Shown in pieces: positions 2,467 through 16,797 of a stretch of 20,137 nucleotides of DNA. A program made the position numbers and the translations under genes. The notes beneath the pieces were generated by a model. It searched no databases. It saw nothing but the letters and a program-made list of their open reading frames with translations, and was not told the DNA's origin. Origin of the DNA: an uncultured Dialister sp. (GTDB lineage Bacteria > Bacillota > Negativicutes > Veillonellales > Dialisteraceae). Numbering within the stretch: the first letter of the stretch is position 1; each line of letters begins with the position of its first letter. The stretch is from NCBI GenBank assembly GCA_934216155.1, contig CAKQBK010000050.1, positions 1 to 20,137 of the forward strand. Direction: 5' to 3'.

Positions 2467-4089
2467 ATGAAAGTGAGTGTTTTATTTGACATGGAAAATG
2501 GCAGTGAAGAACTGTTGATGGAGCCTTCTCAATATGTTTTGTGTGGGATGCAGGCAGTGGAGGCTGTGCGGATTCTGGTAAAAAACGGGCAGAAGGTGGC
2601 TCATCCGGAAAAGGTGCGTGTGGTGATTGATCACGCGGTGCCGCCCAATTCTCCGGAGGTGTCTCTGGCGCAGCGGGAATTGATGGATTTTGCTAAGACG
2701 TACCAGATTCCTTTTTATTATGGCAGGGGCATGGCCTTTTCTTTGCTGAAGAATGAATGGGGAAAGGAATCGCTGGTTCTTAGCACGGACCCGGATGTGG
2801 CTATGGTTGGCGGTTTGGGTGCTATTGGACTTTGTTTGTCTCCGGAAGATATGGCCCAGGCATTGACCGCTGAAACGTGGAAAGCCAAGGAACGGAACAT
2901 TTTCTGGGTCAAGGTGATGGGAGCATTGCCAGCTGGAACAGACGTGAGGGATGCGGCACGGGCTTTTATTTCTCAATGGAAAGGGAAGTTGCCGAAGGAT
3001 TCCATTCTTGCTTTTTCTGATGGAAATACGGGACTTTCTGAAGAGGATTGGATGGTTCTTTGCGGGGCCATGCAGAAGGTATCTGTGCCTATGGCAGCAA
3101 AGTCTTCTTATGATTGGAAAGGACCCTATGATGCGGTGTTGGATTTGGACAAAGTTATGCCCTCTTTGGATGTGGGGGCCGGTCATGTGGTAGATACCTT
3201 ACCAGCACAATCGGTGCAGGCGGTCTTTATTGGTGGTGCCTATGGAGGTTTTTTGTCGGATATCAAGAAAACAGCCGATGCTTTGGAAGGAAAACGTGTG
3301 GCACCGAAGGTTCGTCTTTCTGTGGCTCCTCATACGGCAGAAGTGTATAGCGCGGCAGCTCGGAAGGGATATCTGACCACCATCATGGAAGCAGGTGGCT
3401 TGGTGCTGAACCAGTGTGCTACGCCCCACGAACAGGCTATGATTGGCAAAACGGAGCTGATGATTTCCAATGACAGTCACAATGAAGAGGGCTATGCCGG
3501 AGATGTTGGTGGACGAATTTACCTTTCTTCTACGGAAACGGCTATCCAGGCAGCATTGACCGGAAGGATTGGGAAAGAAGACATATCTCCGAAGAAGGAC
3601 ATGACCTTGGAAGGGCGGGTCTGGAAATTTGGAGACGATATCGATACAGATATTATCATTCCCACCCAGCATTTATCCTATCCTTCTTGGGAAGAAGTAA
3701 AAAAGCATATGTTTGAACCACTTCGCCCAGAATTGGCTGCCCAGATTCGAGAAGGAGATATCATCGTAGCGGGCAGCAACTTTGGTTGTGGGTCTTCCCG
3801 GGAACAGGCGGCGGAAGTGATTGCCACGTCTGGGATTCGCTGCATTATTGCGAAATCCTTTGCTCGCATTTTCTTCCGAAATGCCATCAATAACGGCGTA
3901 CTTCTCATCGAATGTCCTGCCCTGCCGGACCAGGTAACCGAAGGGGATACGGTGAAAGTGGTCATCAATGCATATATTTCCCATAAAGGGAAGAAATACC
4001 CCATCCCGAAAATGCCAGAGAACCTGTATAGGCTGATTATGGATGGGGGACTGGTTGCTAGTGTGAAAAAGAGACGACAAAAGCAGTGA
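2467..4089 (+). CDS. Degenerate aconitase-type large domain fused to LeuD-like swivel domain
   Basis: A 540-residue aconitase-superfamily protein; the start is set by GGCGGAGG (2454-2461) five bases before ATG. Residues 1 to about 370 align through their length with the large subunit encoded at 4339-5589 (HDHLNP matches IDHAVPP at 54-60; TDSH matches TDPD at 107-110; GTLPKG matches GALPAG at 152-157). The catalytic and cluster residues are gone: the SCTN cysteine is Ala258, the CxxC pair is reduced to Cys317 with Pro320 in place of the second Cys, and the substrate arginines of NRNFLGR are not conserved. Residues about 380-540 form an intact LeuD-type swivel domain (GDDIDTDIIIPTQHL, GSNFGCGSSREQAAE, KSFARIFFRNAINNG). 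Its substrate loop reads HLSYP instead of the YLR(T/M)-type loop of isopropylmalate isomerase. The large half is probably structural and the swivel half serves the neighbouring LeuC-like subunit. The substrate is unknown; no leuA or leuB lies nearby. Confidence 0.85.
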   Translation: MKVSVLFDMENGSEELLMEPSQYVLCGMQAVEAVRILVKNGQKVAHPEKVRVVIDHAVPPNSPEVSLAQRELMDFAKTYQIPFYYGRGMAFSLLKNEWGKESLVLSTDPDVAMVGGLGAIGLCLSPEDMAQALTAETWKAKERNIFWVKVMGALPAGTDVRDAARAFISQWKGKLPKDSILAFSDGNTGLSEEDWMVLCGAMQKVSVPMAAKSSYDWKGPYDAVLDLDKVMPSLDVGAGHVVDTLPAQSVQAVFIGGAYGGFLSDIKKTADALEGKRVAPKVRLSVAPHTAEVYSAAARKGYLTTIMEAGGLVLNQCATPHEQAMIGKTELMISNDSHNEEGYAGDVGGRIYLSSTETAIQAALTGRIGKEDISPKKDMTLEGRVWKFGDDIDTDIIIPTQHLSYPSWEEVKKHMFEPLRPELAAQIREGDIIVAGSNFGCGSSREQAAEVIATSGIRCIIAKSFARIFFRNAINNGVLLIECPALPDQVTEGDTVKVVINAYISHKGKKYPIPKMPENLYRLIMDGGLVASVKKRRQKQ

Positions 4090-4104
4090 GACGCTGGGGA
4101 AAAT

Positions 4105-4295
4105 AGTTAGGAGTGAGGAGTTAGAAGTGAGGAGTGAAGGTGGCAGCGCATAAAATTTATAAAGCGCCGCATCTTTATAAAAAATGAACGACTTTTATTT
4201 GCTTGGATCATAAAATATAAAAGGGGTATTGGGGCACTATATGAATTGTGCGCCCCTTCCACCACTCCTCACTCCTAATTCCTCACTCCTAACTT
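4105..4295. repeat. Family 2 intergenic element (copy 2a)
   Basis: A 191-base element with imperfect inverted ends: AGTTAGGAGTGAGGAGTTAG on the left and CTAATTCCTCACTCCTAACT on the right. Inside each end is a hairpin with a GC arm and an AATT-like loop (GCAGCGC...GCGCCGC and GGGGCACT...GTGCGCCCC). The same layout recurs at 9471-9822, 10163-10479 and 16467-16797, with a half copy at 19511-19570. It separates the two aconitase-like genes, which would otherwise be close neighbours. Confidence 0.85.
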
Positions 4296-4338
4296 ATATA
4301 CGGTTTCATACCAAGTGAAACAGAAGGACAAGGTACAT

Positions 4339-5589
4339 ATGAAGAGTCATACCATAGCGGAGAAGATTTTAATGAAACATACCGGGGCGGCGGATTTGCG
4401 GCCTGGCGATCTGGTGGTGATTGAGCCAGATTACGCGGTATGTCATGATATTTATACAGAAAAATTATATAAACGATTGGAAGATATGGGATTTTCGTCT
4501 TTGAAATATCCCAACCGATGCGTGATTTTCCATGACCATTTGAATCCTGCCTGTCTTCCTACGGATCCGAGAAGTTTGTCCTATGGGTATAAATTATGTG
4601 AGAAATATGGCATTCAGGATTTCCACGGCACCGGCGGGATTTGTCACCAGCTCATTCCAGAATTGGGCTATGGGAAACCGGGACGAATTATTCTTTGTAC
4701 CGATTCCCATACCACTACCTACGGTGCCGTGGGATGCTTTTCTACTGGCATCGGGTATACCGAAATGGCCTATCTGTGGGGCACAGGGGAATTGTGGCTT
4801 CGCGTGCCATCGGCCATCAAAATTCAAGTGGATGGGACATTGCCCAAAGGGGTCTATGCCAAAGATATCATTCTACGTGTACTGGGTGATTTGAAAGCCG
4901 CTGGCGGTACCTATCGGTCACTGGAATTTTGCGGCAGTACCATTTCCGATTTGTCCATCGATTCTCGTTTGACCATTTCCAACATGGTGGTAGAATGTGG
5001 TGCCAAAGCGGGCATGTTTCCGGCAGACGAAAAAACAGCGGCCTATTGCAAGGAACCGCTGGAAGATATCGATTGGGTACAGGTGGGAGATGACGAGGCT
5101 TACGAAAAAGTGCTTCGCTATCGGGCCGAAGACCTGGAACCCGTGGTGGCTTGTCCGCCCTATGTGGATAACATTCACCCTTTGTCGGAAGTGGAAGGCA
5201 CAGAAATCACCCAGGTGTGCTTAGGTTCTTGCACCAATGGACGGTTGGAAGATTTAGAAATCGCTGCGTCCATTCTGAAAGGCAAGAAAGTCCATCCTTT
5301 CGTGAAATTTGTGGTGACTCCGGCGTCCAATTCCATTATGGAAGAAGCTATGAAACGGGGATATATTGAAACATTGGTAGAGGCGGGGGCTATGGTGACA
5401 CCACCGTATTGCTCTTTCTGTGAAGGCCGAACCATGGCCCTCATGGGAGAAGGGGAAGTCATGCTGGGCACCAACAATAGAAATTTCCTGGGCCGCTTCG
5501 GGTCGCCCAAAGCCAAAGCCTATCTGGCCAGTCCGGCGGTGGCGGCTGCGTCAGCTATTACGGGGAAAATTACAAAACCAGAGGCGTGA
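4339..5589 (+). CDS. LeuC/aconitase-family hydro-lyase large subunit
   Basis: A 416-residue [4Fe-4S] hydro-lyase large subunit, the size of the short (archaeal or HacA-like) LeuC class. Visible motifs are HDHLNP (65-70), CHQLIPELG (102-110), TDSHTTTYGA (121-130), GSCTN with Cys298, PYCSFC with Cys358 and Cys361, and NRNFLGRFGS (380-389). All three cluster cysteines and the DSH triad are present, so it should be catalytic, adding or removing water across a 2-hydroxy acid. It has no swivel domain of its own, and the only one nearby is the C-terminus of the upstream protein. CSFC with FLGRFG differs from typical isopropylmalate isomerases, so aconitase, homoaconitase, isopropylmalate, citramalate/mesaconate or dimethylmalate-type activity all remain possible. 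A GTG at 4315 is in frame but lacks a binding site; the ATG at 4339 follows AAGG and gives the family-like start MKSHTIAEKIL. Confidence 0.88.
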   Translation: MKSHTIAEKILMKHTGAADLRPGDLVVIEPDYAVCHDIYTEKLYKRLEDMGFSSLKYPNRCVIFHDHLNPACLPTDPRSLSYGYKLCEKYGIQDFHGTGGICHQLIPELGYGKPGRIILCTDSHTTTYGAVGCFSTGIGYTEMAYLWGTGELWLRVPSAIKIQVDGTLPKGVYAKDIILRVLGDLKAAGGTYRSLEFCGSTISDLSIDSRLTISNMVVECGAKAGMFPADEKTAAYCKEPLEDIDWVQVGDDEAYEKVLRYRAEDLEPVVACPPYVDNIHPLSEVEGTEITQVCLGSCTNGRLEDLEIAASILKGKKVHPFVKFVVTPASNSIMEEAMKRGYIETLVEAGAMVTPPYCSFCEGRTMALMGEGEVMLGTNNRNFLGRFGSPKAKAYLASPAVAAASAITGKITKPEA

Positions 5590-7592: not shown

Positions 7593-7891
7593 GGTATAGT
7601 TAGCGGTAGGTAGTTAGCAGTAGGCGGTGAACTGTGAACTTTACAATATTTCTTAAACCTTTTCTATGAAATAATGACAACTATCTCATAATGTTGTAAA
7701 ATGATGGTTAGCTTGGAAATAAGTTTGGATAGTAAGGTTATACTTATCGTTCACATCATTGAATTAATGAATGATGTGTTATAAGGTGATTGGTAGACTG
7801 ATGACTAGTGACTGGGGAAGTATCCCTTTTTCTAGTCACGAGTCACCAGTCACGAGCTACTCATTTTCAGTATAAAGAAAAGAGGAAATCT
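7593..7891. other. Intergenic region between upp and the secreted protein gene
   Basis: Bases 7605-7640 are degenerate family 2-like text (AGTTAGCGGTAGGTAGTTAG). CACATCATT (7752-7760) is the perfect inverse of AATGATGTG (7770-7778) around a nine-base loop, an operator-like or small hairpin structure 114 bases before the secreted protein gene. Bases 7795-7860 form an imperfect hairpin of repeated GTGACTGG/CCAGTCAC text, shared with other gaps. No convincing promoter was found. Confidence 0.5.
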
Positions 7892-9421
7892 ATGAAACAT
7901 AGCAAACTGACAGCCCTGCTCTGCGCTTTGGCTATCACTGGCACTGGCGTATCGTCTGCCTGGGCAGAAGAAGCAGCACCGGCTGAAACTACACAGACTG
8001 CACAGACAGAAACTGTGACCCAAGAAGTGAACTATACCGATGCATTGCTGAAGGGCTTATCCTTGACCCTTCCCGATGTACAGAATGCTGTAGAATCTGG
8101 CACATTCAAGAACTTGTCTCCAGAAGCACCGAAACCGGAAGCACCGGAGCCGGAACCCATTCCGGAACCAGAACCGGAGCCCACACCAGAACCTGAGCCG
8201 GAACCGGAACCCGAGCCAGAACCGACACCGGCACCAGCAGCCAAGTACACCGCTGATCAGGGCACCGCTGCCAATGAACTCACCAGCGATGGTACCTATG
8301 ACGGCATGACATACAGCTCTGAAAAATCCGATGAAAATGCACTCCGTGTTTCCATGGCCTATATTTCTGCCACTGGGGATACATTGACCAAATCCGGCGA
8401 TGCCAGCAGCAACGAAAGCAGCGATCTCTTCGGCCTCAATGCAGCTCTTCTGGTTACCCACGGCGGTCATGCGACCCTGACAGATACAAAAATTTCCACC
8501 TCTGGCTTGGGCGCTACCGGGGCTTACGGCTATAGCAAAGGCACTTATATCAACCTGACCAATGGCACCATTGCTACCACTGGTAACTATGCAGCTGCAG
8601 CCGAAGTATCCGAAAGAGCCATGATGAAGGTGAAAAATACTACCGCCAGCACCGCAGGATACGGCGCACCGGTACTGAAAGTGTCTAAAAATGGGGGTAT
8701 CATCCTCGTGGAAGACAGCCAGTTCACCACTGCAGGACAGAACGCCCATGGCGTGTACACCGCTGGCGATGTGACACTGACAAACAGTACTGTCAATGCA
8801 CAGAATACCAAAGCCGCTGTGATTAAAAACAACAATACCCTGACTTTGGAAAATGCTACCCTGGAAGGCAATGAAACCGGTTCTCTGCCATACAACATTG
8901 TGATGTACTCTGATGCGGATGCCATTGGTACCATGGGAACCCAGCAGTTTGAAGCTAAAGGATCCCATCTGATTTCCCATAAAGGCGGCATGTTCTACGT
9001 GACTGGCACACGGGGAAAGATTACCCTGGAAAATACCACCCTGGAACAGGACAAAACACAGCCGATTTTGACCATTGTAGGAAATAATGGCACCTTTGGT
9101 TGGGGCGAACCAGGCAGCAATGGCGGCCATGTCGAAATGATTCTGGGCAATCAGACACTGGAAGGAAATATTCTGGTAGATTCTATTTCTGATATTAACC
9201 TCAGCATCCGCGATAACTCCACCTGGACAGGGGCTCTCGACATCATTGATAACGCAGAAGGTGGCACCCCTTACAAGACCAATGCGGACATTTTCATCGC
9301 TGAAGGCTCCACCTGGAATCTGACTGCCGATTCCAAAGCCACCAGCGTATTCAACCTGGGCACCATCAACTACAATGGACACACCATTACCTTGGCAGAT
9401 GGAACGGTGATGAAGGAATAA
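7892..9421 (+). CDS. Secreted or surface protein with Pro-Glu linker and beta-helix-like repeats
   Basis: A 509-residue exported protein. The frame is open from 7808, but the ATG at 7892 follows AGAGGAAA and begins a clean signal peptide (MKHSKLTALLCALAITG, cleavage predicted after AWA at 25). A low-complexity linker of alternating Pro and Glu with some Thr (about 79-113) leads to a Thr/Asn/Gly-rich region (about 115-509). Its short turns such as GHATLTDTKIS, GDVTLTNSTVN, NTLTLENATLE and GKITLENTTLE look like rungs of a right-handed beta-helix, as in adhesin passengers and pectate-lyase-like folds. No autotransporter barrel, LPXTG, S-layer domain or membrane anchor is visible, so how it is held is unclear. 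It may be a secreted adhesin or a passenger without its translocator. The gene stands alone with its own terminator. Confidence 0.82.
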   Translation: MKHSKLTALLCALAITGTGVSSAWAEEAAPAETTQTAQTETVTQEVNYTDALLKGLSLTLPDVQNAVESGTFKNLSPEAPKPEAPEPEPIPEPEPEPTPEPEPEPEPEPEPTPAPAAKYTADQGTAANELTSDGTYDGMTYSSEKSDENALRVSMAYISATGDTLTKSGDASSNESSDLFGLNAALLVTHGGHATLTDTKISTSGLGATGAYGYSKGTYINLTNGTIATTGNYAAAAEVSERAMMKVKNTTASTAGYGAPVLKVSKNGGIILVEDSQFTTAGQNAHGVYTAGDVTLTNSTVNAQNTKAAVIKNNNTLTLENATLEGNETGSLPYNIVMYSDADAIGTMGTQQFEAKGSHLISHKGGMFYVTGTRGKITLENTTLEQDKTQPILTIVGNNGTFGWGEPGSNGGHVEMILGNQTLEGNILVDSISDINLSIRDNSTWTGALDIIDNAEGGTPYKTNADIFIAEGSTWNLTADSKATSVFNLGTINYNGHTITLADGTVMKE

Positions 9422-9470: not shown

Positions 9471-9822
9471 AGTTAGAAGTGAGAAGTGAGAAATGAGAAA
9501 TTGTGGTGGCGGCGCATCAAATCTGGAAGCGCCGCAAAATATACAAAGGTTATTATTCTACTCATTTCCACCTTCTAATATGTAAATTTTGCCGCATAAG
9601 ACAAGCTTAAAAAGGGTTACACAAGGTTATGAAACTTACGATAAGCACATAACCTTATATAACCCGTTTTAACCTTGTGCTAAGCGATACAAAACAACTT
9701 GTTAGAACATCGAAATCCTAGAGTATAACCTGCCTGAAGGGCTAACCTAAAACAGGAATTTGGGGCGCTTTATGAATTGTGCGCCCCTTCCACCATTTCT
9801 AACTTCTAACTTCTAACTATCC
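9471..9822. repeat. Family 2 element (copy 2b), interrupted by a family 1 element
   Basis: The left part (AGTTAGAAGTGAGAAGTGAG, then the hairpin GGCGGCGC...GCGCCGC, to 9537) and the right part (GGGGCGCTT...GTGCGCCCC, then TTCTAACTTCTAACTTCTAACT, 9757-9818) are the two ends of a family 2 element. Between them lies copy C of family 1. Family 1 therefore appears to have inserted into family 2. Confidence 0.82.
9544..9735. repeat. Family 1 MITE-like element (copy C), nested and decayed
   Basis: Left end CAAAGGTTATTATTCTAC (9544-9561) is intact. The right end is decayed (TATAACCTGCC near 9724-9734). The inner inverted repeats of GGTTAT iterons are recognisable at 9612-9630 and 9648-9677. It lies wholly inside the family 2 element 9471-9822. 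Confidence 0.78.
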
Positions 9823-9854: not shown

Positions 9855-9870
9855 ACTTCTAACTACAAAA

Positions 9871-10119
9871 TGGCAGTGAAGAGAAGAGTATGCCTGTGGA
9901 TAAAGTAAAGAGAGCTTCTATTAGGTGAAAGGAAGTATTTGGAAATAGGCAGAACATGGCCTCTGAGCCTGCTGGGCTGAATGATTAGGTCCACCGGGAA
10001 TTCCCGTTACAGAAGAGAAGTTTCATACTTCATAAGGCTTTCTCTGGCGACAGAAAAGCAAAATAGGGTGGTACCACGATTACGAATCCATCGTCCCTTA
10101 CGGATGGTGGATTTTTTGT
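9871..10119 (+). promoter_or_regulatory. T-box riboswitch, methionine specifier
   Basis: The T-box proper AGGGTGGTACCACG (10065-10078) matches the antiterminator consensus, with TGGT facing a tRNA ending in ACCA. Stem I is visible: AGTA (9887-9890), the helix TGCCT (9891-9895) with AGGCA (9947-9951), and then the specifier strand GAACATGG with ATG at 9956-9958. An ATG specifier, a TGGT bulge that fits the A discriminator of tRNA-Met, and metQ as the next gene all agree on uncharged tRNA-Met as the ligand. When that tRNA binds, transcription should read through the terminator at 10086-10117. Confidence 0.93.
10086..10117 (+). terminator. Regulated terminator of the T-box leader
   Basis: An 11-base stem (10086-10096 with 10102-10112, two G-T wobbles), a five-base loop and six T residues. 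It lies just 3' of the T-box sequence, as expected for the terminator competing with the antiterminator. Confidence 0.9.
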
Positions 10120-10162: not shown

Positions 10163-10479
10163 GAGTGAGGAATTAGGAATGAGGAGTTAGGAGTGGTGGA
10201 AGGGGCGCACAATTCATAAAGCGCCCCAATACCCCTTTTTAGGGATTAGAGATTAGGCCCTAGGGATTAGGAAATTTGCAATGCTTCCTGTTATGTCATA
10301 GCTATTAGCTTTTAGCTGTTAGCTACTAGCCGGCTAGAAGCCAGAAGCTAATAGCTAGCTGCTGTGACACTAGCGAATTTTAGGATTTCCCAATCCCTAG
10401 CTATTTTACAATATTTTGCGGCGCTTTATAAGTTGTGCCCCACCACCACTCCTCACTCCTAATTCCTCACTACTCACTG
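10163..10479. repeat. Family 2 intergenic element (copy 2c)
   Basis: A 317-base element with ends GAGTGAGGAATTAGGAATGA and TCACTCCTAATTCCTCACTA, a GGGGCGC...GCGCCCC hairpin on the left, and a GCGGCGC-led segment on the right. The core is an inverted array of TAGCT/AGCTA words centred on CTAGCCGGCTAG (10327-10338), ending with TGTGACACTAGCGA (10363-10376). It is almost identical to 16467-16797. It lies between the T-box terminator and metQ, inside the presumed leader transcript. Confidence 0.9.
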
Positions 10480-10501: not shown

Positions 10502-11335
10502 ATGAATCTGAAGAAAACAATCATCGCATCGGTAGCAGCTCTGGCAGCTGTTGGTTTCCTGGCTGGTTGCGGCGGCGATCAGAAAGCAGCTCCGGCAAAG
10601 AGTGCTTCTGCTGACAAAGCAGTTACCATTAAAGTAGGCGTATCTCCTGTACCGCATGGAGAAATCCTTGGCGCTGTCAAAGACCAGCTAGCCAAAGAAG
10701 GCGTCAATGTAGAACTGGTAGAATTCACCGACTACGTACAGCCGAATCTGGCACTGAATGATAAGAGTCTGGATGCCAACTATTTCCAGCATAAACCATA
10801 CCTGGATGAATTCTGCAAATCCAGAGGTCTGAAACTGAAATCCATCGGCACCGTCCATCTGGAACCAATGGCTGTATACTCCAACAAGATCAAAGCCTTG
10901 AAGGACCTCAAAGATGGTGCTCATGTAGCCATTCCGAATGACCCGACCAATGGCGGCCGTGCTCTTCTGGTACTGCAGTCCGCTGGCCTGATCAAACTGA
11001 AAGAAGGCGCACCGATCACCGCTACCCCGCAGGACATTGCTGAAAATCCGAAAAACTTGGTATTCTCCGAACTGGAAGCACCACAGCTGCCACGTTCCAT
11101 GGAAGATGCTGATATTTCTGTCATCAACATGAACTTCGCCCTGGAAGCCAAACTGGATCCAAAGAGCGCCATCTACACCGAAAGCTCCGATTCTCCATAT
11201 GCGAATATCGTAGCTGTTAGAGAAGGCGATGAAAACCGTCCGGAACTGCAGAAACTGATGAAAGCCCTGCAGAGCGCAGAATCCAAAGCATTTATTGAAA
11301 AGAAATATGGTGGCGCTATTAAGGCTACATTCTAA
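10502..11335 (+). CDS. metQ: Methionine ABC transporter substrate-binding lipoprotein
   Basis: A 277-residue NlpA/MetQ-family lipoprotein. The N-terminal signal ends in the lipobox FLAGC with Cys23, so the mature protein is lipid-anchored outside the cytoplasmic membrane. Family motifs follow: KVGVSPVPHGEIL (about 44-56), NLALNDKSLDANYFQHKPYLD (85-105), AIPNDPTNGGRALLLLQ-like (about 143-160) and a C-terminal YGGAIKATF. Its role is to bind methionine and pass it to the MetN/MetI transporter. GGAG lies eight to eleven bases before the ATG. No metN or metI follows; the next genes are tRNAs, so it is an orphan binding protein here. The Met-specific T-box upstream supports methionine over other NlpA ligands, although this family also includes proteins for other amino acids. 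Confidence 0.92.
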   Translation: MNLKKTIIASVAALAAVGFLAGCGGDQKAAPAKSASADKAVTIKVGVSPVPHGEILGAVKDQLAKEGVNVELVEFTDYVQPNLALNDKSLDANYFQHKPYLDEFCKSRGLKLKSIGTVHLEPMAVYSNKIKALKDLKDGAHVAIPNDPTNGGRALLVLQSAGLIKLKEGAPITATPQDIAENPKNLVFSELEAPQLPRSMEDADISVINMNFALEAKLDPKSAIYTESSDSPYANIVAVREGDENRPELQKLMKALQSAESKAFIEKKYGGAIKATF

Positions 11336-11901: not shown

Positions 11902-11976
11902 GCGGAAGTAGCTCAGTGGTAGAGCACAACCTTGCCAAGGTTGGGGTCGCGGGTTCGAGTCCCGTTTTCCGCTCCA
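11902..11976 (+). tRNA. tRNA-Gly (anticodon GCC)
   Basis: 75 bases. Acceptor GCGGAAG pairs with TTTCCGC; the anticodon loop is TTGCCAA; the T loop has GGTTCGAGTCC; CCA is encoded. First gene of the cluster. Confidence 0.97.
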
Positions 11977-12009
11977 TTGTTAGTTACATCGCAAGATGTT
12001 TCTATAGAT

Positions 12010-12085
12010 TCCTGAATAGCTCAGCCGGTAGAGCGCGTGACTGTTAATCACGATGTCGTAGGTTCGAACCCTACTTCAGGAGCCA
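12010..12085 (+). tRNA. tRNA-Asn (anticodon GTT)
   Basis: 76 bases. Acceptor TCCTGAA with TTCAGGA, anticodon loop CTGTTAA, T arm GGTTCGAACCC, encoded CCA. Confidence 0.97.
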
Positions 12086-12087
12086 AT

Positions 12088-12162
12088 AGGGGTATCGCCA
12101 AGCGGTAAGGCAACGGACTCTGACTCCGTCATGCGTAGGTTCGAATCCTACTACCCCTGCCA
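12088..12162 (+). tRNA. tRNA-Gln (anticodon CTG)
   Basis: 75 bases. Acceptor AGGGGTA with TACCCCT, anticodon stem ACGGA/TCCGT around loop CTCTGAC, so the anticodon is CTG, which reads only CAG. A TTG isoacceptor must lie elsewhere. CCA encoded. Confidence 0.93.
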
Positions 12163-12166
12163 AAAT

Positions 12167-12242
12167 GATCCACTAGCTCAGTCGGTAGAGCACTTGACTT
12201 TTAATCAAGGTGTCCCGCGTTCGAGTCGCGGGTGGATCACCA
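12167..12242 (+). tRNA. tRNA-Lys (anticodon TTT)
   Basis: 76 bases. Acceptor GATCCAC with GTGGATC, anticodon loop CTTTTAA, encoded CCA. Confidence 0.97.
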
Positions 12243-12247
12243 TATTT

Positions 12248-12322
12248 GGCCTGTTCGTCAAGTGGTTAAGACACCGCCCTTTCACGGCGGGTTCGCGAGT
12301 TCGAATCTCGCACAGGTCACCA
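12248..12322 (+). tRNA. tRNA-Glu (anticodon TTC)
   Basis: 75 bases. Acceptor GGCCTGT with ACAGGTC, anticodon stem CCGCC/GGCGG around CTTTCAC, encoded CCA. Confidence 0.97.
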
Positions 12323-12326
12323 ATGT

Positions 12327-12402
12327 GGGCGATTAGCTCAGCTGGGAGAGCGTCTGCCTTACAAGCAGAATGTCAGCAGTTCGATCCTGTTATCGCCCAC
12401 CA
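12327..12402 (+). tRNA. tRNA-Val (anticodon TAC)
   Basis: 76 bases. Acceptor GGGCGAT with ATCGCCC, anticodon loop CTTACAA, encoded CCA. Confidence 0.97.
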
Positions 12403-12407
12403 CAAAT

Positions 12408-12484
12408 GGCCCGGTGGTGTAGTGGTCTAACATGCCGCCCTGTCACGGCGGAGATCGTCAGTTCAAATCTGATCCGGGTCGCCA
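12408..12484 (+). tRNA. tRNA-Asp (anticodon GTC)
   Basis: 77 bases. Acceptor GGCCCGG with CCGGGTC, anticodon loop CTGTCAC, encoded CCA. Confidence 0.97.
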
Positions 12485-12493
12485 TTTTATTTT

Positions 12494-12569
12494 GCCTCGG
12501 TAGCTCAGTTGGTAGAGCAAAGGACTGAAAATCCTTGTGTCAACGGTTCGATTCCGTTCTGAGGCACCA
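12494..12569 (+). tRNA. tRNA-Phe (anticodon GAA)
   Basis: 76 bases. Acceptor GCCTCGG with CTGAGGC, anticodon loop CTGAAAA, encoded CCA. Confidence 0.97.
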
Positions 12570-12576
12570 CATCTTT

Positions 12577-12662
12577 GCGGCTGTGGCGGAATGGCAGACG
12601 CGCTACTTTGAGGGGGTAGTGATCTTTCGATCGTGTGAGTTCAAGTCTCACCAGCCGCACCA
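12577..12662 (+). tRNA. tRNA-Leu (anticodon GAG)
   Basis: 86 bases with the long variable arm of class II tRNAs (GATCTTTCGATC). Acceptor GCGGCTG with CAGCCGC; anticodon loop TTGAGGG gives GAG. CCA encoded. Confidence 0.94.
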
Positions 12663-12697
12663 CTAATTCCTAATTCCCTCGTGTTTTAACTAAATAT

Positions 12698-12782
12698 GCG
12701 GTTGTGGCGGAACCGGCAGACGCGCTATCTTCAGGCGGTAGTGGAGTAATCCGTGAGAGTTCAAATCTCTCCAACCGCACCA
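12698..12782 (+). tRNA. tRNA-Leu (anticodon CAG)
   Basis: 85 bases, class II with a long variable arm. Acceptor GCGGTTG with CAACCGC; anticodon loop TTCAGGC gives CAG. Last gene of the cluster; CCA encoded. It is similar to the preceding tRNA-Leu, suggesting local duplication and divergence. Confidence 0.94.
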
Positions 12783-16466: not shown

Positions 16467-16797
16467 TAGTGAGGAGTGAGGAATTAGGAGTGAGGAGTGC
16501 TGGAAGGGGCGCGTCAAAATTATATGGCGCCCCAATACCCTCTTTTTTAGGGATTAGGGATTAGGCCCTAGGGATTAGGAAATTTGCAATTTTTCCTGTT
16601 GTATCACAGCTATTAGCTTTTAGCTGTTAGCTACTAGCCGGCTAGAAGCCAGAAGCTAAGAGCTAGCTGCTGTGACACTAGCGAATTTCAGAATTTCCTA
16701 ATCCCTAGCTACTAATCCCTAGCTACTTTACTATATTTTGCGGCGCTTCCAAATTTTGTGCGCCGCTACCTTCACTCCTCATTCCTAACTCCTAACT
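16467..16797. repeat. Family 2 intergenic element (copy 2d)
   Basis: It is nearly identical to copy 2c over most of its length: GAGGAATTAGGAGTGAGGAG at the left, the AGGGATTAGGCCCTAGGGATT segment, the TAGCT/AGCTA inverted array centred on CTAGCCGGCTAG, and TGTGACACTAGCGA (16671-16684). The right end has GCGGCGC...GCGCCGC and TCACTCCTCATTCCTAACTC. It begins three bases after the polA stop codon and separates polA from coaE. Confidence 0.92.

Follow-up and report, generated by a model that had tools for sequence, protein, structure and literature searches.

Two neighbouring genes, P1 and P2, were analysed in a 20,137-nt stretch of DNA from an uncultured Dialister sp. (contig CAKQBK010000050.1), referred to here as the window. 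The two proteins probably make up one LeuCD-type [4Fe-4S] hydro-lyase or isomerase in which a dead large subunit has been retained. Domain identities, loss of canonical residues, tree grouping, gene order and co-occurrence were observed; from these we infer the complex, an active site built by P2 and a swivel domain, and the role of the pseudo-subunit. The original prediction had taken P1 and P2 for complementary aconitase-like genes, one active and one dead, that probably arose by ancient duplication, and had asked whether they always occur together. Its observation of the two genes was confirmed, and complementarity, duplication and co-occurrence stood; the dead P1 domain, however, is not the sister of P2. 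The features are given in Table 1.

Table 1. Features of P1, P2 and the repeat stretches in the window. C1, C2 and D2 are subunits of a tandem cassette described in the text.
Feature	Position	Strand	Remark
P1	2467-4089	+	540 aa; Pfam: Aconitase and Aconitase_C
P1 residues 1-371, degenerate (pseudo) aconitase/LeuC large-subunit domain	2467..3579	+	related to C1
TDPD, residues 107-110 (TDSH in catalytic large subunits)	2785..2796	+	Asp108 retained
Ala258, replacing the first Fe-S cysteine (P2 Cys306)	3238..3240	+	alignment, residue table
Cys317	3415..3417	+	aligns one residue ahead of the second ligand cysteine
P1 residues 381-537, intact LeuD/swivel domain	3607..4077	+	groups with D2
GSSRE, residues 442-446, swivel motif bearing the catalytic serine in aconitases	3790..3804	+	serine role (Ser642) according to PMC8184944
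P2, intact catalytic large subunit, no swivel domain	4315..5589	+	424 aa; likelier start ATG 4339; groups with C2
P2 Fe-S ligand region: Cys306 in GSCTNG; Cys366 and Cys369 in CSFC	5230..5421	+	alignment, residue table
Stretch of ~190 bp with inverted-repeat arms, between P1 and P2	4105..4294	.	end motif found again elsewhere in the window
Further TTAGGAGTGAGGAGTTAG-like motif stretches	near 9473-9816, 10173-10476, 16470-16795, 19517		

In its fold and in the P2 active site the pair is ordinary LeuC/LeuD. Aconitase was the sole Pfam domain over cut-off in P2 (PF00330, 308.8 bits against 28.7), and the protein passed three NCBIfam LeuC/HacA subfamily models (NF001614, 498.3 against a cut-off of 385) and kept 14 of 14 canonical residues in our residue table, the three Fe-S cysteines included. 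The first 371 residues of P1 also have the LeuC/HacA-type large-subunit fold, and a BLASTP alignment of the two large domains spans 363 positions, with 25% identity and 40 gaps (E 4e-19). Here 3 of the 14 canonical residues were left, the LeuC/HacA-type cysteines and catalytic residues were not in place, and TDSH and NRNFxGR were both gone. By its residues, one copy of the complementary pair is dead, as had been predicted. The Fe-S ligands are indeed lost and Ala258 stands at the first position; the other two positions, earlier given as Cys317 and Pro320, are A318 and H321 by BLASTP against P2. The C-terminus of P1 passed the LeuD/DmdB subfamily model TIGR02087 (175.9 against a cut-off of 108.95). 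GSSRE was retained in all 11 window-type swivels, and among the swivels of other pseudo-subunit systems one of 15 deviated (GFSRE in locus L002).

Among 7998 candidates scored in a search with P1, 1377 were homologues at E 1e-5. The best 120 of these were 47-94% identical to P1, and 119 of the 120 covered at least 90% of it. The fused layout was common, at full length, to 24 aligned proteins (P1 and 23 of the best 120 homologues). PF28406 was precomputed on some P1-like and P2-like homologues (P0003, P0004, P0005, P0156 and others); it did not appear in the Pfam scan of P1 and P2.

Co-occurrence was followed in 380 genomes of one class, assigned to Negativicutes by way of Veillonella sp. R32 (genome G001, locus L068). 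The pseudo-domain as query matched, at E 1e-18, 27 places spread over 24 genomes. Motifs and alignment showed 13 of them to be pseudo-subunits (12 genomes), four to be intact C1 subunits, nine ordinary large subunits and one an active partner. At 13 of the 13 pseudo-subunit places a P2-like subunit was encoded on that strand no more than about 4.1 kb away, in agreement with strict co-occurrence of the pair, and no fused or dead gene without its partner was seen in the loci examined. With P2 as query 23 places were found, 13 beside a pseudo-subunit and ten apart from one; the nine places where the match to P2 reached at least 54% identity all adjoined a pseudo-subunit. Six of the ten were C2 subunits of tandem cassettes (G134, G137 contig 27, G138, G139, G141 and G362), and the other four (G135, G136, G140 and G364) were left out of the sorting. 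Longest contigs of equal size (20454, 19422 and 5333) are given for three pairs of clusters, one P1-like and one P2-like in each, an indirect sign of common contigs.

Four further loci from contigs of named genomes, in Companilactobacillus insicii (L002), an uncultured Clostridium (L013), an uncultured bacterium (L072) and Clostridiales bacterium 1_7_47_FAA (L080), were found among the matches listed and brought the total to 17. A scan of genome contigs with a single protein as query found no relative. The order pseudo-subunit, swivel, active large subunit on one strand was kept in all 17 loci examined, with a transporter gene between swivel and active subunit in L089 and L135. The fusion of pseudo-subunit and swivel that had been described for P1 is real and occurs at two loci (L088, L092) besides the window; it is one of three arrangements, as the swivel is free at eight loci (L087, L089, L090, L091, L135, L140, L002, L068) and fused to the active subunit at seven (L136, L137, L138, L139, L013, L072, L080). 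In Clostridia the pseudo-subunit profile matched ordinary large subunits in at least 291 of 391 genomes, from which no count of pseudo-subunits is derivable; genome G002 alone stood far out among the matches listed, short frames in G404 contig 39 and G514 contig 159 being left out.

In Lachnospiraceae and some Negativicutes, two complete small-large pairs stand one after the other as D1-C1-D2-C2, a cassette that possibly encodes a four-subunit isomerase. It was seen at L003, L005, L007, L014, L063, L073 and L079 and at L115, L116, L120, L132, L142 and L144; at L073 it lies, by eye, beside ilvN/ilvC-like genes. A tree of large domains was built from 75 rows, 17 of an original 92 having been dropped, five as long-branched or short (pA_G006, pC_G028, pB_VeillR32, o_L066, pC_G030) and 12 for thinning. 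A 100/99 branch split the pseudo-subunits and C1 from ordinary, C2 and active subunits, and C2 formed one 100/100 group with the active, P2-like subunits. Holding the pseudo-subunits with the P2/C2 lineage cost 26.3 log units and was rejected (p-AU 0.02), the group for this test having been chosen after inspection of the tree. A swivel tree built from 65 rows had a 100/99 branch that split P1-type, group B and group C swivels together with D2 from D1 and ordinary LeuD; several rows were long, and the order of D2 and the pseudo-system swivels was not settled by it. All pseudo-subunits together occupied one side of a branch in both the 92- and the 75-row large trees, and group C by itself formed no single-branch group in these or in the swivel tree. 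The ancient duplication is borne out, and the dead domain is placed with C1 rather than with P2, which goes with C2 as the P1 swivel goes with D2. If the root lies among the ordinary subunits, the simplest history suggested by the trees would be that D1 was lost, C1 decayed, D2 and C2 were kept, and the swivel was then fused separately to either neighbour.

Judging from the aligned residues, the decay of the pseudo-subunits is graded, with cluster-keeping and cluster-less forms. The residue table covered 16 of the 17 pseudo-subunits, that of G096 being called by missing motifs alone. Each of the 11 tandem-cassette C1 subunits kept 13 of the 14 canonical residues. Group C kept all three cysteines (7/7) and lost catalytic residues; the cysteine motifs of C1 and group C include GSCNN and GGC forms. 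Group B lost the cysteines, the first being left in one of eight. All 14 window-type rows lost the three ligand cysteines and the equivalents of His147, Arg447 and Arg452, the first-cysteine column holding Ala in ten and Ser in four. Asp is kept throughout these rows at the Asp100 and Asp165 equivalents and in the Asp108 column of TDPD (14/14 each), and Cys317 is invariant in the 24 aligned window-type proteins. Such conserved residues could mean that the degenerate domain remains able to bind a cluster or ligand and is active in its own right, with altered ligands as in aconitase X, so that P1 would be bifunctional. In aconitase X the cluster is of the [2Fe-2S] or [3Fe-4S] type and its ligands differ from those of other aconitases (PMC8184944), and group C does keep its cysteines. 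Against this, the residue losses of the window type are uniform, and P1 scored 16.2 and P2 22 with the aconitase X model PF04412, both below the cut-off of 31.5. We regard a bifunctional P1 as unlikely.

The domains also diverged unevenly. In four genome pairs the swivel and active subunit were 68-83% identical against 36-58% for the pseudo-domain. In the order pseudo-domain/active/swivel, identities were 36/74/75 for window-G006, 44/69/70 for window-G096, 58/82/81 for G125-G137 and 53/83/83 for L013-L080. By these identities, the pseudo-domain is retained and faster-evolving, as might be expected of a structural or regulatory part.

In the aconitase superfamily the general base is a serine of the swivel, and the Lewis acid is the Fe-S cluster bound by the large part (PMC8184944). 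P2, which has the cluster ligands, would hold the cluster and bind the substrate in its half of the active site, and the C-terminal swivel of P1, which has the serine motif, would give the other half, catalytic serine included. The N-terminal domain of P1, related to C1, would be a large subunit that has lost catalysis and is retained for structure or regulation, most likely occupying the position of a second large subunit. Pseudoenzymes are frequently regulators, and P1 might instead be a regulator or moonlighting protein, with P2 borrowing the swivel of a housekeeping LeuD; the relative G006 does have a separate large-swivel-LeuB-like set. The LeuD of G006 lies within that set and so has its own partner, which bears on the possibility, raised with the original prediction, that a separate LeuD pairs with P2. 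Against a regulatory P1, GSSRE is kept in the window-type swivels, P1-type swivels group with D2, and seven loci have a related swivel joined to the active subunit, where it is thus the catalytic partner. The chance of such a purely regulatory P1 is slight, a little below that of a bifunctional one.

Neither P1 nor P2 reached any equivalog cut-off shown in the NCBIfam scan, so that no substrate is named by curated models. For 3-isopropylmalate dehydratase P2 scored 401.9 against 610.65 (TIGR02083) and P1 153.2 against 245.85 (TIGR02084); for methanogen homoaconitase the scores were 399.1 against 550 (NF040615), and 146.9 (NF040625) and 140.4 (NF040604) against 230. P2 homologues, where they are named at all (most are not), are called 3-isopropylmalate dehydratase large subunit. 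Even so, an ordinary isopropylmalate isomerase, mis-split or decaying, is very improbable. The LeuC/LeuD equivalog scores fall short of the cut-offs, G006 has its own large-swivel-LeuB-like set, which argues against leucine synthesis by P1-P2, and the fused form is full length in 24 proteins. Isopropylmalate isomerase, aconitase X and a mis-split gene were rejected on the equivalog and PF04412 scores, the G006 set and these fusions. Equally improbable is a pseudo-subunit that serves P2 as a maturation or cluster-transfer factor and not as a permanent subunit: group C, which has the three cluster cysteines and has lost catalytic residues, would suit cluster handling, but the window type and group B lost the cysteines and are still linked to the partner.

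Several points weigh against a P1-P2 enzyme with a dead subunit as described above. The trees are unrooted, and the descent depends on a root among ordinary subunits. A physical P1-P2 complex is predicted from co-occurrence, gene order, fusion and tree grouping, and the structure predictions were of single chains; the higher pTM of a natural swivel-active fusion (L013, 0.86) than of P1 (0.66), which speaks for the proposed enzyme, was drawn from different alignments, of 24 and 15 rows. Fast evolution of the pseudo-domain fits weak constraint equally well as regulation. About 225-250 bp lie between P1 and P2 in the window, which makes co-translation uncertain, and neighbours that hint at function are absent beside P1-P2 in the window, in G006 and in G096, where the contig is just 12 kb.

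The substrate is probably, at low confidence, a small 2-hydroxy acid with two or three carboxylate groups, similar to citramalate, citrate or methylcitrate. Neighbours were counted up to about 10 kb from each of the 17 loci, contig ends cutting some of them short. A citrate-type symporter (2-hydroxycarboxylate family) was found at 11, a pyruvate:ferredoxin oxidoreductase (PFOR) type enzyme at ten, phosphate butyryltransferase (Ptb) with butyrate kinase (Buk) at nine, an OadA-like carboxyltransferase with a CMD protein at nine, an RraA-like protein at five and a LeuB-like dehydrogenase at four. A conserved fermentative set (PFOR, Ptb, Buk, CitS-like transporter, OadA-like and CMD proteins, LacI regulator) was seen at L080, L013, L072 and L137-L139. 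Taken as gene content, the neighbours of many relatives suggest 2-hydroxycarboxylate fermentation. They fit uptake, isomerisation, oxidative decarboxylation, 2-oxoacid oxidation and ATP synthesis from acyl-phosphate, for example from citramalate to propionate or with citrate-type acids; the gene for the dehydrogenase step lies near only four of the 17 loci. Elsewhere in G006 and G096 there is a PrpB-like lyase (279 and 294 bits, under the cut-off of 354), and CitF had no match in either genome; on these grounds a methylcitrate- or dimethylmalate-like route is faintly possible there. PF00180 dehydrogenase had no match in G096, a genome that is perhaps incomplete. The literature search on the substrate found no operon study matching these gene sets. 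In Acidaminococcus fermentans the aconitate hydratase genes Acfer_1971 and Acfer_1973 have genes for a dehydrogenase (1968) and for a MatC carrier (1969) as neighbours (PMC3035267), and our guess is that they are a pseudo-subunit system. At L147 (G002 contig 103), apart from the pseudo-subunit locus of that genome, PrpF, PrpB-like and LeuC-like genes stand in a row with a swivel beyond; the row resembles a dimethylmalate or methylcitrate route.

The stretch between P1 and P2 was probably inserted and is no part of the P1-P2 system. The TTAGGAGTGAGGAGTTAG-like motif had 14 matches in the window, four of them between P1 and P2, and none in shuffled sequence; the intergenic copy resembles a small mobile or palindromic element that is non-coding. 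Copies also lie between a T-box leader (9867-10101, Rfam 112.7 bits) and the MetQ-type lipoprotein gene downstream of it (10502-11335). The window further holds a gene at 7808-9421 for a 537-aa protein with a proline/glutamate repeat and a beta-helix region (65% in G006) and a run of ten tRNA genes at 11902-12782. G006 shares the order P1, P2, CpXC, upp, beta-helix protein and metQ, some of the genes being inverted, and the last four are 58-85% identical to those of the window.

There is an even chance that P1 and P2 represent an undescribed class of aconitase-superfamily enzyme, with an active large subunit, a swivel arranged in three ways and an obligate pseudo-large subunit, derived from a four-subunit tandem enzyme of which one half decayed, the pseudo-subunit controlling or shaping the active site in the fermentation of branched or tricarboxylic hydroxy acids by anaerobes. 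Because intact, cluster-keeping and cluster-less stages coexist, and the swivel occurs alone or joined to one partner or the other, each step in the origin of a heteromeric enzyme with a dead subunit is open to test. Genes of these anaerobes named isopropylmalate dehydratase may, as a warning, have another role.

Pseudoenzyme subunits are known from many families. No account of an obligate pseudoenzyme partner in the aconitase superfamily, and no characterised family with the same architecture, as might have overturned the original prediction, was found in the open-access literature. Aspergillus AcoB, an aconitase paralogue without measurable activity, is a precedent, but its active-site residues are kept and the accessible part of its report (PMC3556520) gives it no partner-subunit role. 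The aconitase X enzymes (cis-3-hydroxyproline dehydratase and mevalonate-5-phosphate dehydratase) are members of the superfamily with unusual cluster ligands (PMC8184944); P1 and P2, unlike them, fall below the PF04412 cut-off. Dimethylmalate dehydratase DmdAB is likewise a LeuC/LeuD-type hydro-lyase, and TIGR02087 is named for the LeuD/DmdB family. However, the candidate cluster in G002 (PrpF, PrpB-like, large, swivel), which we take to be Mii-Dml-DmdAB-like from the pathway order, lies apart from the pseudo-subunit locus, and DmdAB was left out of the trees. We know of no dead large subunit in archaeal LeuC/LeuD-type enzymes. P2 is homologous over residues 8-422 (E 4e-100) to the isopropylmalate/citramalate isomerase and homoaconitase of this type in Methanocaldococcus jannaschii (4kp1, 4kp2, 3vba, 2pkp), whose small subunits match the P1 swivel and whose large-subunit fold the pseudo-domain shares; the swivel loop is HLSY in P1 and YLVY or YLRT in 3vba and 2pkp. 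Tandem D1-C1-D2-C2 cassettes are alike in that pseudo-subunits group with C1, P2 with C2 and the P1 swivel with D2, whereas their C1 is nearly intact and D1 is present. P1-P2 is best described as a real, coherent variant of LeuCD/aconitase enzymes that has kept a dead subunit.

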